Source of the DNA: Chloroflexota bacterium
Lineage (GTDB): Bacteria; Chloroflexota; UBA11872
NCBI GenBank assembly: GCA_026707585.1
Contig: JAPOWQ010000053.1
Span: 124,001-188,000, forward strand
DNA: 64,000 nt
Direction of reading: 5' to 3'
The position numbers and the translations under genes were made by a program. Under the pieces are notes generated by a model. It was not told the origin of the DNA. It searched no databases and saw only the letters and a program-made list of their open reading frames with translations. This document shows positions 3,253-8,509 of the stretch, piece after piece (position 1 is the first letter of the stretch; every line of letters begins with the position of its first letter).

Positions 3253-4272
3253 TCAGGCAGTCTCCGGGGCCGCCGGGCGTCCGTCGCTGACGGCCATGGT
3301 GGCGGCGATCTCGATGGCCATCTCCATACTATCCGCCCGCGCGATCCCTTGCCCGGCAATATCGAAGGCCGTGCCGTGATCCACGCTGGTGCGGATGATG
3401 GGCAGCCCCACGGACACGTTGATTCCGTCAAAGAACCCGGCCACCTTCACGGCCACGTGTCCTTGGTCGTGATACATCGCCACCACCCCGTCGAACGCGC
3501 CGTCTCGCGCCCGGTTGAAGACGGTGTCGCCCGGCTCGGGCCCGGTGGCGTCAATGCCGTCCTTGCGCGCATCCTCGATTGCCGGACGAATAAACGCATC
3601 GTCCTCGTCTCCGAACAGGCCGCCTTCTCCCGCGTGCGGATTGAGCCCGCAAACGGCGATTCGCGGCTCCCGGATCGCCATCCTCCGCAGGGTCTCGTCC
3701 AGCAGGCCGATCACGTGGCGCACGTTTTCGCGAGTGACGCGCGCAATGGCCTCCCGCAGCGAGACGTGCGTGCTGTTGTGAATCACCCGTAGTCCCGGCG
3801 CCACCAGCAGCATGCGCGCGCCGGGTGAGTCGGTCAGGTCGGCCAAGAGCTCGGTATGTCCCGCGTAGTTGTATCCGGCGGCATTGATGGCCGCCTTGTT
3901 GAGCGGCGCCGTGACAATCGCCGCCACGCGGCCGTCGAGCGCAAGCTTGGTGGCCACGATGACCGCCTCCGCCGCGGCGGCGCCGGCCCTGGCATCGACC
4001 GTCCCCACGGGCACGTCGTTCAGATCGCGTCCCCAGGGGTCGTAGACCTGGATTCCATCAATCCCTCGGTCCAATGCGTCCACGTCCACGGCGGCGACGT
4101 TCACACCCACGGCGCCAGCAGCCCGTTCCATCGTCCGCAAGTCACCGACCACCGCGAGGCGACAGGCGGCTCGAATCTTCGGGTTCGCCAGGGCTTTCGC
4201 TGTGATCTCGGGACCGACACCGGCCGGGTCACCCATGGTGACGGCAATCAGCGGGCGCTGATCGGCGGACAT
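3253..4272 (-). CDS. PdxA/PdxA2-family 4-phospho sugar-acid dehydrogenase
   Basis: A 339-residue PdxA-family protein: AVTMGDPAGVGPE at the N-terminus, metal-site histidines in GHTELLAD and MYHDQGHVAVK, and GTAFDIAGQG near the end. PdxA makes a pyridoxal precursor from 4-phosphohydroxythreonine. The PdxA2 branch oxidises and decarboxylates D-threonate or D-erythronate 4-phosphate to dihydroxyacetone phosphate, and is encoded beside four-carbon acid-sugar kinases. The kinase gene is immediately upstream here, so I favour the catabolic PdxA2 role. ATG 4272 is chosen; a GTG at 4308 would add 12 residues. Confidence 0.85.
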   Translation of the reverse strand: MSADQRPLIAVTMGDPAGVGPEITAKALANPKIRAACRLAVVGDLRTMERAAGAVGVNVAAVDVDALDRGIDGIQVYDPWGRDLNDVPVGTVDARAGAAAAEAVIVATKLALDGRVAAIVTAPLNKAAINAAGYNYAGHTELLADLTDSPGARMLLVAPGLRVIHNSTHVSLREAIARVTRENVRHVIGLLDETLRRMAIREPRIAVCGLNPHAGEGGLFGDEDDAFIRPAIEDARKDGIDATGPEPGDTVFNRARDGAFDGVVAMYHDQGHVAVKVAGFFDGINVSVGLPIIRTSVDHGTAFDIAGQGIARADSMEMAIEIAATMAVSDGRPAAPETA

Positions 4273-4327
4273 CACAATCTCGGTGACGCGTGGCGTGGCG
4301 TTGGCCACTCGCCTGCAAGACGTGTCG

Positions 4328-5557
4328 TCACGCCACGTGCCTCGATCGGGAGCATAGGGTTCGAAAGGCAGTAATCAGCGCGTCCGGACCTCCCATGTTC
4401 CCACCCTTGGTGACCACAGACGCCACCCGGCGCGTTCCGCGCAGCGCATGCCCGCCCGGTACGCCCCACTCGATCTCCCCCAGAACTTCGATCGCGTCCA
4501 CCTCCAGCGCATCCAGCGCGGCGCGCGCGGTATCCCCGCCGGTCAGAATCAGCCCCGGCTGCTCGGCGGCGTCAACGATGGCTCTACACAGATCGCCCAC
4601 GCACCGGAGCTGGCGCCGGCATTCCTCAACACGCGGCGCCGTTCCCTCAATCGTCGTGTCGAAGATGACCAGCCGCTCGCCCGGCCGGTTGAGGCGCGTC
4701 GCTCGAACCGCCGCTTCGATGTCCGCTCCGCTTCGTATTCGCATCCGCCGTGCATGCCCCGTTGCCAACGCGCGCTCGACCTGAACTTCGGTGTGAGCGC
4801 TGGGTGTACCCACCACGGCCGCCACGAATCCCGATCGTCCCGGGTCCGCGGATTGGGCTGAGTCCTGATCGGTCTGCGCCAGGTACTCGGCAAGCCCGGC
4901 CGAACCCGCGCTGATGCGCCCGACATCCGACGCGCGAAGGCCCAACGCGATCGCGCTCAGGTCGCCGTCCGTCTCCACGTCCGGGACCACGACGTTGGCA
5001 CCGGACCTCTGTGCCGTCGTAATTGCGTCCACAAAGCTGTCCGGATCTCCCCGAACGACGTCAAGCGGCACCCACTCGGTCGTCAGGCCGGCGCTCTCCC
5101 GCAGAAGAGTCGGAATGTGCGATTCCAATACCGGTGTCAGTGGATCGCGTCCCGGAGCGGCTTCGGCAACGGGCAGGCCGTCCAACCGGTGTATCCCATC
5201 CACCGTCGTCCGGCCGCCGGTCGGATAGGCAGGCGCAAACACCAGCGGCCCCGAGCCGGCGGCGTCGCGTAGCGCCCGCAATTCAGCCCCGATGTTTCCG
5301 CGTAGCAGGGAATCGGTCTTCTTGTAGATCCGCGCCGACGTTCCGCATGGCAGCGTGCGATACGCGGCCGTCACGCTTGCGGCGGCGCTGGAGGCCGGAA
5401 CGTGCCTGGACTCGGTGCTCACGGCAACCACCGATCCGTGCGAAGGCCATACGCCCGGACGGGTCGAGACGATGGTCTGTTGGCCGGCTTTCCGGAATTG
5501 CAGCGCGGTATCCAGCGCCCCCGTCAGGTCGTCGGCAATGACGGCCCAACGGTCCAT
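4328..5557 (-). CDS. four-carbon acid-sugar kinase (DUF1537 family)
   Basis: 409 residues with the family signatures: AVIADDLTGALDTA at the N-terminus, KKTDSLLRGNIGAEL (about residues 79-93), APAYPTGGRT, and a C-terminal nucleotide-binding part with LTGGDTARAALDALEV. DUF1537 enzymes phosphorylate the 4-hydroxyl of threonate, erythronate or related acids with ATP. The start is 3 bases after the larA-like stop and the stop is about 55 bases before pdxA2, so translation is likely linked. With PdxA2 this gives a two-step route from a C4 sugar acid to a triose phosphate. Stereospecificity cannot be read from sequence. Confidence 0.9.
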   Translation of the reverse strand: MDRWAVIADDLTGALDTALQFRKAGQQTIVSTRPGVWPSHGSVVAVSTESRHVPASSAAASVTAAYRTLPCGTSARIYKKTDSLLRGNIGAELRALRDAAGSGPLVFAPAYPTGGRTTVDGIHRLDGLPVAEAAPGRDPLTPVLESHIPTLLRESAGLTTEWVPLDVVRGDPDSFVDAITTAQRSGANVVVPDVETDGDLSAIALGLRASDVGRISAGSAGLAEYLAQTDQDSAQSADPGRSGFVAAVVGTPSAHTEVQVERALATGHARRMRIRSGADIEAAVRATRLNRPGERLVIFDTTIEGTAPRVEECRRQLRCVGDLCRAIVDAAEQPGLILTGGDTARAALDALEVDAIEVLGEIEWGVPGGHALRGTRRVASVVTKGGNMGGPDALITAFRTLCSRSRHVA

Positions 5558-5560
5558 ACC

Positions 5561-6826
5561 TCAGGCCACCAGGGGCAGCGTGTCCGGTGCGTGCGTCAAG
5601 ACCCCAACCCGCGGTGCGGTGACGCCTGTGCGCGCCAGGGCCGCAAGCGCCGTTTCCACATCCGGCGCCCTATCGAAGCCCAGTGCTTCTGCCTCGTGCC
5701 TCGCGATTCCGTCCGATACCAGCACCACGCGCGCGTATTCCCGGACCCTGGCCCAGGCCACCGCCAGCGATGCGGCCACGCGGTCGTCGATCTCGTTGCG
5801 CTCGTAGCGTCGCAGCAACTGGTCGGCTGGCTGCGCCGTGTAGTCGAGCATGTCGGGGTGCGTCACGGCCACGCCTTCCGGGCACGGCGTCACCACGATG
5901 ATGGCTCCGCCCGGCCGCACCATCAGCATGGCCGGATACAGGCTCTTGTGGGCCTGCCAGAACTCGATATCGCACGGGTGCGACCCGGCCACCACTGCGT
6001 CCAGCCCGGCGGGTGCGCGAACCCCGTAGATGCGCCGGGCGTCTTCGACGGCCCGTCGATACGTAGGCCGCGTGGCCCCAAAGCGAGCCGTCACGATCCG
6101 CCCGTCGGCATTGAGCGTCACATTCAGCACGTGCCGCATGCCGCAGCGCTCGGCAATCAACTCCATCTCGGCGCGGACCGGCGTGTCGACTCGCCCCAGC
6201 AACGGCGTCCGCGCCCTGGCGCTGAACATGTGCGTGGCGGCCGTGGTGGCGGCCCCCGATACGCCCGGCTGCACGATCTTGGCGCCGGCCGAGAATCCGG
6301 CGATGTGGTGCGGCACCACCGCGCCGGTCCCAATCACGAGATCGGCCTCGAACAGGTGCTCGTTGACTTCGATCGGCGTCCCGCTCGGCGTCACGCCCAG
6401 GTCGCGCAGGGGTGCCGTGCGGTGGTCGTGCTGCGTCACCCGCACCCGCCCCAGCACCTCGTCACCGACCTTGCGCCTGACCTCGGCGTCCGTCATCGGC
6501 CGGTGCGTGCCCAGAGCGATCATCACCAGGATCTCGTCCGCCGCGATCCCCGCCGTTTCCAGGTCGTCCAGGATCGGCGGCAGCAGCAGGTCCGCCGGCG
6601 TCTCCCGCGTAATGTCGTCGATCAGCACAAGAGCGCTGTTCTTGCCTCGCGCTGCCTCCAGCAACGACTCAGACCCGATGGGATCGTCCAGCGCCGCTCG
6701 AATCAGCCCGCGAGGATTGCCCGCCGGCGGAGTGGCCCGCGGCGTGTAAACACCCGCAACCTCGACGCCCATGCCGCGCACGGCCAGCGTCGCTTCGCCA
6801 TACGGCAGGTCGAATCGGCGGATCAT
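5561..6826 (-). CDS. LarA-like nickel-pincer 2-hydroxyacid racemase/epimerase
   Basis: 421 residues of the LarA (DUF2088) family. LarA uses a nickel-pincer nucleotide to shift hydride at C2 of 2-hydroxy acids. The expected residues are visible: ALGTHRP (His of the H108 position), HHIAGFSAGAKIVQPG (histidines at the H174 position and the pincer-binding Lys of K184), and THMFS (H200 position). Family members act on lactate, malate, gluconate and other 2-hydroxy acids. Lying directly before the C4-acid kinase and pdxA2, it may epimerise a sugar acid at C2 to feed them. The pincer-making larB, larC and larE genes are not in this window. Confidence 0.88.
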   Translation of the reverse strand: MIRRFDLPYGEATLAVRGMGVEVAGVYTPRATPPAGNPRGLIRAALDDPIGSESLLEAARGKNSALVLIDDITRETPADLLLPPILDDLETAGIAADEILVMIALGTHRPMTDAEVRRKVGDEVLGRVRVTQHDHRTAPLRDLGVTPSGTPIEVNEHLFEADLVIGTGAVVPHHIAGFSAGAKIVQPGVSGAATTAATHMFSARARTPLLGRVDTPVRAEMELIAERCGMRHVLNVTLNADGRIVTARFGATRPTYRRAVEDARRIYGVRAPAGLDAVVAGSHPCDIEFWQAHKSLYPAMLMVRPGGAIIVVTPCPEGVAVTHPDMLDYTAQPADQLLRRYERNEIDDRVAASLAVAWARVREYARVVLVSDGIARHEAEALGFDRAPDVETALAALARTGVTAPRVGVLTHAPDTLPLVA

Positions 6827-6847: not shown

Positions 6848-7672
6848 CTAGGCGGCCACCACCGGATTGCTGAGCACCCCCACACCTTCCACCTCAATCT
6901 CGATCACGTCGCCCGGTGACAGCGCCGACGGACCCGCGCACGTCCCCGTGTAGATGCAATCGCCGGGACTGAGCGTTACCCCCTGCGAGGTGTACGCAAC
7001 CAGGGCCGCCACGTTGAACAGCAGGTCGTTGGTATTGCTGTGCTGCTTGGTTTCCCCATTGAGCCGGGCCATGATCTCAAGGTTGGAGGGGTCCAGGTCG
7101 GTGGCAATGCACGGACCGAGCGGTGCAAACGTGTCCATCCCCTTGCTCATCAGCAGCACGCCGGTCGCCATTTCCTTGACCTGCAGGCCACGCGCACTGA
7201 CGTCGTTGCCACAGCTGTAGCCCAGCACGTAGTCAAGCGCCTCGTCTTCCGAGACGCTTCGGCAGGTCTTCCCGATCACCGCCACCAGCTCGGCCTCATA
7301 GTGCACCTCGCCGAACGGGTCTTTCTGAAGGTCCGGGTCGTTCATCGACTGGGTGAACTTCGCCGGGTCCGGCAGGACGATCGGCGCTCCGGGTCCGGTG
7401 ATGGCCGAATTGGGCTTCATGAACAGCATCGGGAACTTCGGAATGGCGTCCTCATCGTGGCCTTCCAGGATGTGCGCCAGGTAGTTGGCCCCAACCGCGA
7501 TCACATTGCCGGGATCGACCGGCGCCAGCAAATCCAGGTCGTCCACCGTGCCGACCTGCGCCCCGACCTCGTAGTCGCCAAACATGTCGCCGCTGACGGC
7601 GTAGACGGCGCCCGATTCCTTCAGAGAGCCAAGGGCCGGCCCGGATTCGGTGGCGTAACGAACGAATTTCAT
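6848..7672 (-). CDS. fumarylacetoacetate hydrolase-family enzyme
   Basis: A 274-residue FAH-fold protein. A short N-terminal cap precedes the catalytic beta-roll with the metal ligands in EVHYEAELVAVIG (two Glu) and GNDVSARG (Asp). MSKGMDTFAPLGP and IYTGTCAGP mark the active-site wall. Related enzymes hydrolyse or decarboxylate 2-oxo acids (ureidoglycolate lyase, 2-oxo-4-pentenoate hydratase, dehydratases of sugar acids). The start is 60 bases after the alpha/beta-hydrolase stop and 21 bases before larA, so it belongs to the same catabolic operon. The precise reaction is unknown; processing of a 2-keto-3-deoxy acid is a reasonable guess. Confidence 0.85.
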   Translation of the reverse strand: MKFVRYATESGPALGSLKESGAVYAVSGDMFGDYEVGAQVGTVDDLDLLAPVDPGNVIAVGANYLAHILEGHDEDAIPKFPMLFMKPNSAITGPGAPIVLPDPAKFTQSMNDPDLQKDPFGEVHYEAELVAVIGKTCRSVSEDEALDYVLGYSCGNDVSARGLQVKEMATGVLLMSKGMDTFAPLGPCIATDLDPSNLEIMARLNGETKQHSNTNDLLFNVAALVAYTSQGVTLSPGDCIYTGTCAGPSALSPGDVIEIEVEGVGVLSNPVVAA

Positions 7673-7732: not shown

Positions 7733-8509
7733 TCAGAGCCCGAGGAAGCGGGCCAGTTCGGCGCGCAATTCGTCCGGCGCCTCAAGGCTCGGCCAATGGC
7801 CCACGTCGGGCAGCGTAAAGACCTCGGCGGCGGCCAGCCGGGCGGCCAGAATCTGAAGGTCGATATCGCTCACAAACGGATCGTCCGAGCCGCGCACCAG
7901 CAGCGTTGGCGCCGAAATCTCGGTCGCCTCCTCCAGCAACACGCGCCGAGCGCCGCTGGCCAGGCTTCCGGCTATCAGGTCGGCGTCTACGGCGGCCGCC
8001 GCGTCGCGCATGGCGGCAAAGTGCGCCTCCGCCAGGTCCTCCACCAACCCGGCGCGCAGCCAGGCGTCGGCCCCGTCGGCATCCCAGCCACCATTCTCGA
8101 TTCCGTTCAGTCGCTCCACGCTTACACGCGGGTCCCGGTCGAACCCCGCCGTCGCAACCAGGGCCAAGTGGCTGACGTGACTCGGGAAGCGAGCGGCAAA
8201 GTTGAGTGCGACTAGGCCTCCGTACGCGTGTGCCACGACAGGCAGCGCGTCGGTGTTTCCCTGCGCGTGCAACACGCGGTGCACCAGCGTCGCCGCGTCG
8301 TCGACGGAGCCTGTCGCATTCCCCCGTTCGCTCCTGCCGAAACCGGGAAAGTCCAGCACAAACGCGCGGCACGTGTCGGCCAGACCCTGGGTGACCAGGT
8401 CCCAGGCGACGCCACCCGGCCCAACGCCGTGTATGAACAGGACCGTGGTGCTGCCAGCACCGCGCACGTCGAGCGAGACGCTGCGATTGTCGACCGTTAC
8501 CAGGGGCAT
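7733..8509 (-). CDS. alpha/beta-hydrolase-fold protein lacking the nucleophile Ser
   Basis: A 258-residue alpha/beta hydrolase. It has the oxyanion segment FIHGVGPGG, a DFPGFGRSERG loop, the acidic residue in GSDDPFVSD and the catalytic His in DVGHWPSLE. At the nucleophile elbow, where relatives read GHSxGG, the sequence is AHAYGG: the codon is GCG (Ala) rather than a Ser codon. Asp and His are kept, so ordinary serine-esterase chemistry is not expected. It may be a lyase-like or binding variant, or hold a recent TCG-to-GCG change. It sits 3 bases after hpt and ahead of the FAH gene. Confidence 0.82.
   Translation of the reverse strand: MPLVTVDNRSVSLDVRGAGSTTVLFIHGVGPGGVAWDLVTQGLADTCRAFVLDFPGFGRSERGNATGSVDDAATLVHRVLHAQGNTDALPVVAHAYGGLVALNFAARFPSHVSHLALVATAGFDRDPRVSVERLNGIENGGWDADGADAWLRAGLVEDLAEAHFAAMRDAAAAVDADLIAGSLASGARRVLLEEATEISAPTLLVRGSDDPFVSDIDLQILAARLAAAEVFTLPDVGHWPSLEAPDELRAELARFLGL

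Follow-up and report, generated by a model that had tools for sequence, protein, structure and literature searches.

Lactate racemase and its relatives in the LarA superfamily, among them the malate racemases LarAH5, LarAH6 and LarAH62, gluconate 2-epimerases and a 2-hydroxyglutarate racemase, act on 2-hydroxy acids with the help of a nickel-pincer nucleotide (NPN) cofactor. In these enzymes the carboxylate is held by an arginine and the two histidines, and inversion at C2 comes about by proton-coupled transfer of a hydride to the cofactor (PMC11851776, PMC7583248). Activity has been shown for 8 of the 25 LarA groups of one published grouping (PMC11851776), and the natural roles of the groups are mostly open. 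A second described system, the catabolism of D-threonate, combines a D-threonate kinase, as which DtnK has been named (PMC10971088), with the dehydrogenase PdxA2. Herein we describe a locus in which the two families of that pathway likewise lie side by side, and to which a LarA-type gene is added as a predicted entry step. It is found in a stretch of 64,000 nucleotides from a Chloroflexota bacterium (assembly GCA_026707585.1, contig JAPOWQ010000053.1, positions 124,001 to 188,000 of the forward strand), hereafter called the window. An earlier, sequence-only reading of this stretch had proposed that the LarA-like protein supplies the kinase with the C2 epimer of a C4 sugar acid, and our comparisons lead us to favour, with slightly better than even confidence, a C2-epimerase that depends on NPN and acts on a C4 sugar acid, with D-erythronate/D-threonate as the most likely pair; it would feed a DUF1537 kinase and PdxA2.

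The window protein is assigned to the LarA superfamily, and NPN-dependent stereoinversion is predicted for it. It shares both Pfam domains of the superfamily above cut-off (Lar_N at 176.9 vs 23.3 bits and LarA_C at 29 vs 25 bits), and its residues D71, R74, H108, H173, K183 and H199 correspond to D72, R75, H108, H174, K184 and H200 of lactate racemase LarA. These six NPN-binding or catalytic residues are all kept in 36 of 36 rows of the clade described below. Over its 421 codons the gene differs from a homolog of the same genus (L043) at 26, 11 and 107 sites in first, second and third codon positions, respectively, as is typical of a protein under selection. The sequence-only reading had asked for the cofactor genes and would have given up its proposal if larE or larC were lacking, but all three are present in the genome, with one match each over curated cut-off: larB and larC adjoin on contig 24, after a frame that looks enolase-like by its sequence, and larE lies on contig 19. 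No matching NCBIfam LarA model reaches its cut-off with the window protein, the lactate racemase model giving 227.8 of 460 bits and the hexonate model 70.3 of 500 bits. The same genome holds further LarA relatives, namely a paralog near the lactate racemase model on contig 75 (L064, 433 of 460 bits), one on contig 8 with an E-V loop like that of hexonate epimerases (L067, best model 139 of 500 bits), and a group-22 NPN isomerase over cut-off on contig 14 (L068, 460 vs 400 bits).

In a tree of 47 LarA rows, 36 fall on one branch (support 96/96), which includes the window protein and all 22 DUF1537-linked rows of the tree. Placing the kinase label on this tree takes eight changes (at least seven by the starred branches), so the link between LarA and kinase has been repeatedly gained or lost. 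Twelve near copies (L080, L081, L083-L087, L089-L091, L111 and L127) were kept out of the pocket table and the tree and are included in the locus counts; a weak, partial LarA-like frame (L098) was part of the pocket alignment and was dropped before the tree, and L067, L068 and L070 stand outside the tree. Substrate specificity has been tied to F175, F176, W358 and T359 of LarA, with reported pockets of F-F-W-E/Q for lactate, H/Q-K at the last two positions for malate, E-V-A-H for gluconate and Y-F-H/Q-T for 2-hydroxyglutarate (PMC11770544). At these positions, the last two of which were column-matched by aligning the clade profile to solved relatives, the window protein has H174, I175, S353 and L354, and the 36 rows of the clade have H in 35 and Y in one, I in all 36, A/S/G in 27/8/1 and L/V/N in 32/3/1. 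The resulting H-I-A/S-L pocket matches none of the four published patterns. A lactate or glycerate racemase was rejected because the pocket differs, with H, I, S and L in place of F, F, W and E/Q. Gluconate 2-epimerases and hexonate enzymes are marked by an E-V or E-S loop, a tryptophan in alpha-11 and A or V in alpha-14 (PMC7583248); the window protein is similar in W290 and in the S/A of position 353, but its loop reads H-I, which places it outside that group. W290, which probably represents the reported alpha-11 tryptophan of the sugar-acid groups, is found in 36/36 clade rows, and H293 in 35/36. The hexonate-epimerase-like paralog of the same genome also has W at this position. The tyrosine in place of the pocket histidine belongs to L107, from a Negativicutes UBA1444 genome with two clade LarA genes, one of which lies with kinase and PdxA (L121) and the other (L107) by a galactarate-dehydratase-like gene.

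The two partner proteins score best against enzymes of C4 acids. Both DUF1537 domains of the kinase score above Pfam cut-off (SBD_N at 174.9 vs 25 bits, NBD_C at 66.4 vs 28.3 bits), and it is the sole PF07005 match found in its own genome (G000). As the sequence-only reading had it, this is by its scores a C4-acid kinase: of the three NCBIfam kinase models matched, D-threonate kinase is the best (189.3 of 450 bits), ahead of 3-oxo-tetronate kinase (121 of 350 bits), with both under cut-off. The same preference was seen, also below cut-off, for one kinase from Sporomusa (299 vs 173 bits) and one from a spirochaete (295 vs 152 bits), both encoded in clusters of this kind. The PdxA protein passes the Pfam PdxA cut-off with 343.2 bits and the general NCBIfam pdxA cut-off (359.6 vs 290.35 bits). 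Its nearest solved relatives are 2hi1 (304 bits), deposited as 4-hydroxythreonine-4-phosphate dehydrogenase 2, and 6e85 (293 bits), a D-threonate 4-phosphate dehydrogenase, compared with 184-185 bits for the biosynthetic-type structures 1r8k, 1ps7, 1ps6 and 3lxy. Among solved structures the protein thus lies nearer to PdxA2 than to the biosynthetic type, which bears out its earlier naming as PdxA2 with the caveat that 4jqp, which carries the biosynthetic name 4-hydroxythreonine-4-phosphate dehydrogenase, reaches 281 bits (1yxo, 219). A second PdxA is encoded on contig 30.

The trio is more than a set of chance neighbours, since it is kept in relatives, is rearranged in distant phyla and does not occur at control loci. 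The order LarA-DUF1537-PdxA is preserved in 16 of the 17 family relatives fetched, and in the 17th (G181) it is cut by the contig end. The clade alignment, run against a collection of species genomes, picked up 50 loci, comprising 47 of the clade and three outgroups (L125, L126 and L128) that were set apart by their pocket residues and their place in the tree. Among the 47 clade loci, DUF1537 was found at 32, PdxA at 29, both at 27 and either at 34; for the 32 outside the window's own family, the respective counts are 18, 15, 13 and 20. The expectation that the trio would turn up in other genomes is borne out by these loci, across several phyla. At 14 loci that hold LarA genes of other types, neither partner was found (0/14); this control set has three loci from the own genome and includes L125, L126, L128 and the distant group-22 isomerase L068. 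The gene order varies, being LarA-kinase-PdxA in the own family and L093, PdxA-LarA-kinase in L096-L099 and L102, kinase-PdxA-LarA in L106, L108, L110 (Sporomusa silvacetica DSM 10669), L112 and L121, and LarA-PdxA-kinase in the archaeal L116; PdxA is absent from the spirochaete loci L117, L120 and L123, which read kinase-LarA, and from L094 and L127, which read LarA-kinase. Carriers of the kinase link are mostly metagenome-assembled and belong to Chloroflexota, Thermomicrobiota, Hydrogenedentota, Bacillota, Spirochaetota and one archaeon of the Njordarchaeota. Among 400 genomes sampled from the phylum, 21 have a clade LarA, and DUF1537 adjoins it in 20 of them (the contig of the 21st ends at LarA); any DUF1537 was found in 47 of the 379 genomes without a clade LarA. 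The effective sample number is small, because 18 of the 21 belong to one family, and the Fisher value, which takes no account of this kinship, does not serve as a probability here. Chance proximity was rejected on this sample and on the clade-locus versus control counts. In one relative (L022, from G069), the LarA match contains one internal TAA, from either a pseudogene or an assembly error.

Inversion at C2 links D-threonate, which is (2S,3R), with D-erythronate, which is (2R,3R). The C2 hydride of D-erythronate would move to the NPN cofactor and return on the opposite face to give D-threonate, with H108 and H173 as the putative acid/base pair; the substrate, the direction and the product are those that we infer for the epimerase. 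The DUF1537 kinase would then phosphorylate D-threonate at O4, and PdxA2 would oxidise the resulting D-threonate 4-phosphate at C3, with loss of CO2, to dihydroxyacetone phosphate. The epimerase would in this way provide a redox-neutral side entry into the known kinase/dehydrogenase route. The sequence-only reading had let this route start from threonate or erythronate, a loose wording, as the DUF1537/PdxA pair was reportedly assigned to D-threonate (Zhang et al. 2016), with erythronate going to a pair that includes an aldolase. The DUF1537 route for C4 acids that serves as our comparison begins by oxidation. A DUF1537 kinase acting on C4 acids is common to that route (PMC10580937) and the window, for which a redox-neutral, nickel-dependent epimerisation is predicted instead. 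A broader and doubtful extension is that the whole clade consists of widespread, undescribed nickel C4-aldonate 2-epimerases, ranging from Chloroflexota through Sporomusa and spirochaetes to archaea, that would allow either C2-epimer to be used without oxidation and would feed either kinase and PdxA2 or, at loci with IlvD, galactarate dehydratase or PanB, a dehydratase/aldolase branch.

Several observations weigh against a C4-acid epimerase feeding the kinase and PdxA2. At the protein level, the kinase misses the cut-off of its specific model (the DtnK equivalog), the dehydrogenase misses that of the PdxA2 equivalog (330.7 of 583 bits), and the two best NCBIfam scores of the LarA protein are to malate racemase models (287.2 of 500 and 262.5 of 462 bits). 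W290 is weak evidence, because the outgroups L125, L126 and L128 carry it too. As a difference from D-threonate kinase and PdxA2 catabolism, no TRAP solute-binding (DctP) gene was found in the genome, and the FAH gene upstream of LarA has no assigned step in the predicted pathway. With regard to linkage, both partners are missing from 12 of the 32 loci that the clade has beyond the own family; six of these (L095, L107, L113, L115, L119 and L124) have more than 4 kb on each side and are true misses within that reach, and at the other six (L100, L101, L103, L105, L109 and L118) the sequence is shorter than 4 kb on at least one side. At L122, a looser carrier of the kinase link from the Thermodesulfobacteriota, kinase and PdxA are non-adjacent, at 4.6 and 3.2 kb, and in G093 and G259 LarA is linked to the kinase with PdxA unlinked elsewhere in the genome. 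An 18th relative, from the same genus (G023, L131), has kinase and PdxA2 with LarA absent at that place, which suits an entry step that is optional and counts against its being obligatory.

Of the alternatives, the one that survives best has the same mechanism acting in the L-series, in which L-threonate, a product of ascorbate (PMC12540250), would be interconverted with L-erythronate and one of them accepted by the kinase. The gene linkage suits either series, and the rates of published LarA homologs on 4-deoxy pairs were similar for the D and the L forms (PMC11770544), but D-threonate enzymes give the best scores for both kinase and PdxA, though under the specific cut-offs, and we regard the L-series as unlikely. 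Rather unlikely, too, is an epimerase for another sugar acid (a C5 aldonate, a branched acid such as a relative of isoapionate, or a deoxy acid), with kinase and PdxA2 acting on that series. The DUF1537 family includes 3-oxo-isoapionate kinases, whose model matches the window kinase with 34 bits, dehydratases of the IlvD or galactarate type, or PanB, replace the kinase or stand beside it at some clade loci, and the unexplained FAH gene would fit such a pathway; against it, the best scores of kinase and PdxA are to C4 enzymes. The scanned IlvD (L106, L109) and PanB (L109, L112) proteins pass the ordinary ilvD and panB cut-offs and may therefore be housekeeping genes. A malate or tartrate racemase or epimerase that happens to be located in the operon is improbable: the malate racemase models do give the two best scores, and Mar2 is the top solved relative of the clade profile and second, with 176 bits, to the broad-spectrum LarA 9eid (185 bits) for the window protein alone, but both model scores are far under cut-off, the G-H/Q-K motif of the malate group reads A-S-L in the window protein, and the lysine thought to hold the second carboxylate of malate is absent in 36/36 clade rows. 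On motif and cut-off, a malate racemase was rejected. Recycling of 4-hydroxythreonine for vitamin B6 by kinase and PdxA2, beside an unrelated racemase, is very improbable in spite of DUF1537 kinases and PdxA2 being able to act on 4-hydroxythreonine or its phosphate (PMC7954711, PMC9997740), since PdxJ was not found in the genome (assembly 95.6% complete) and PdxS was, which makes a PdxJ-type B6 route unlikely, and since the linkage recurs in distant phyla with differing gene orders.

The sequence-only reading had called the epimerase step one not known to be described, and this holds for the role and less so for the chemistry. Among the literature matches listed, no paper joins LarA with DUF1537 (the supplementary gene-context table of PMC7583248, which lay outside the search, could list such a link), and LarA occurs with threonate or erythronate only as the 4-deoxy compounds of PMC11770544 and in a remark in PMC7583248 that names deoxythreonate as a possible substrate of LarA homologs. 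The chemistry is already known, as 4-deoxythreonate and 4-deoxyerythronate are weakly C2-epimerised by lactate and hydrophobic-acid racemases (PMC11770544). The likeness lies in the C2-epimerisation of a 2,3-dihydroxy C4 acid by NPN enzymes; the published cases concern other LarA groups, which turn over the 4-deoxy compounds slowly and as a side reaction, and neither DUF1537 nor PdxA nor a kinase is mentioned in the main text of PMC11770544. The logic of the linkage is not new either, since it has been remarked that a nearby sugar kinase could signal a sugar epimerase (PMC7583248). What the window adds is a clade with a pocket of its own and a gene-order tie to two enzymes of known chemistry, a kinase and a dehydrogenase, so that a handful of stereoisomers come into question as substrate. 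If the predicted function is true, a nickel-dependent, redox-neutral entry would be added to the breakdown of four-carbon acids, among which is the ascorbate product L-threonate.

Table 1 Genes of the LarA-kinase-PdxA2 locus and its upstream neighbours in the window.
Feature	Position	Strand	Length	Pfam
LarA-superfamily gene, predicted NPN-dependent C4 sugar-acid C2-epimerase	5561-6826	minus	421 aa	Lar_N/LarA_C
DUF1537 four-carbon acid sugar kinase	4328-5557	minus	409 aa	SBD_N/NBD_C
PdxA2-type dehydrogenase, predicted D-threonate 4-phosphate dehydrogenase	3253-4272 (ATG)	minus		PdxA
FAH-family protein, probable operon member	6848-7672	minus	274 aa	FAA_hydrolase
Alpha/beta hydrolase, possible operon member	7733-8509	minus	258 aa	Abhydrolase_1

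The layout of the locus (Table 1) confirms the three same-strand genes described earlier, with 3 bases between LarA and DUF1537 and 55 between DUF1537 and PdxA. The latter gap holds for the ATG at 4272 and becomes 19 bases if pdxA2 starts at the GTG at 4308, which opens the longest frame (351 aa). The larA-type gene, the kinase gene and pdxA2 are probably co-transcribed. The FAH gene ends 21 bases upstream of LarA, and the alpha/beta hydrolase gene lies 60 bases further up on the same strand; the span of the sequence-only reading leaves out both and so cuts through the unit. At the other end, a 73-aa frame that looks secG-like by its sequence (3248-3027, minus strand) begins after a gap of 4 bases past the pdxA2 stop, an odd place for a secretion gene in a unit for sugar acids.

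Of the 17 family relatives fetched, 16 have FAH directly upstream of LarA and one has it 3.4 kb away; the alpha/beta hydrolase adjoins FAH in these relatives. In three genomes of the same order (L132-L134) the slot reads alpha/beta hydrolase-FAH-DUF1537 and lacks both LarA and PdxA, so FAH may be part of the kinase module. Together with G023, these loci show that the DUF1537 slot is modular within the order, with changing partners. Neighbouring gene families were defined as BLAST clusters of mechanically called frames, some of which are antisense artefacts, and only cluster representatives were scanned. On this basis the TRAP genes DctP, DctQ and DctM were found near several clusters of clade loci, along with a PrpR-type sigma-54 activator, an RpiR-type regulator and a GntP permease; these neighbours, like the dehydratases, fit the use of sugar acids. 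At L103 and L109 a second LarA stands beside PanB near the clade LarA, with the L103 copy passing the LarAH10 model (606 vs 540 bits), and at L109 IlvD is directly upstream of the clade LarA. At L104, from Gracilibacter, DUF1537 was not found in the stretch, and upstream of the clade LarA are PdxA, two FAD-dependent oxidoreductases, an NMT1-type binding protein and a TRAP permease.

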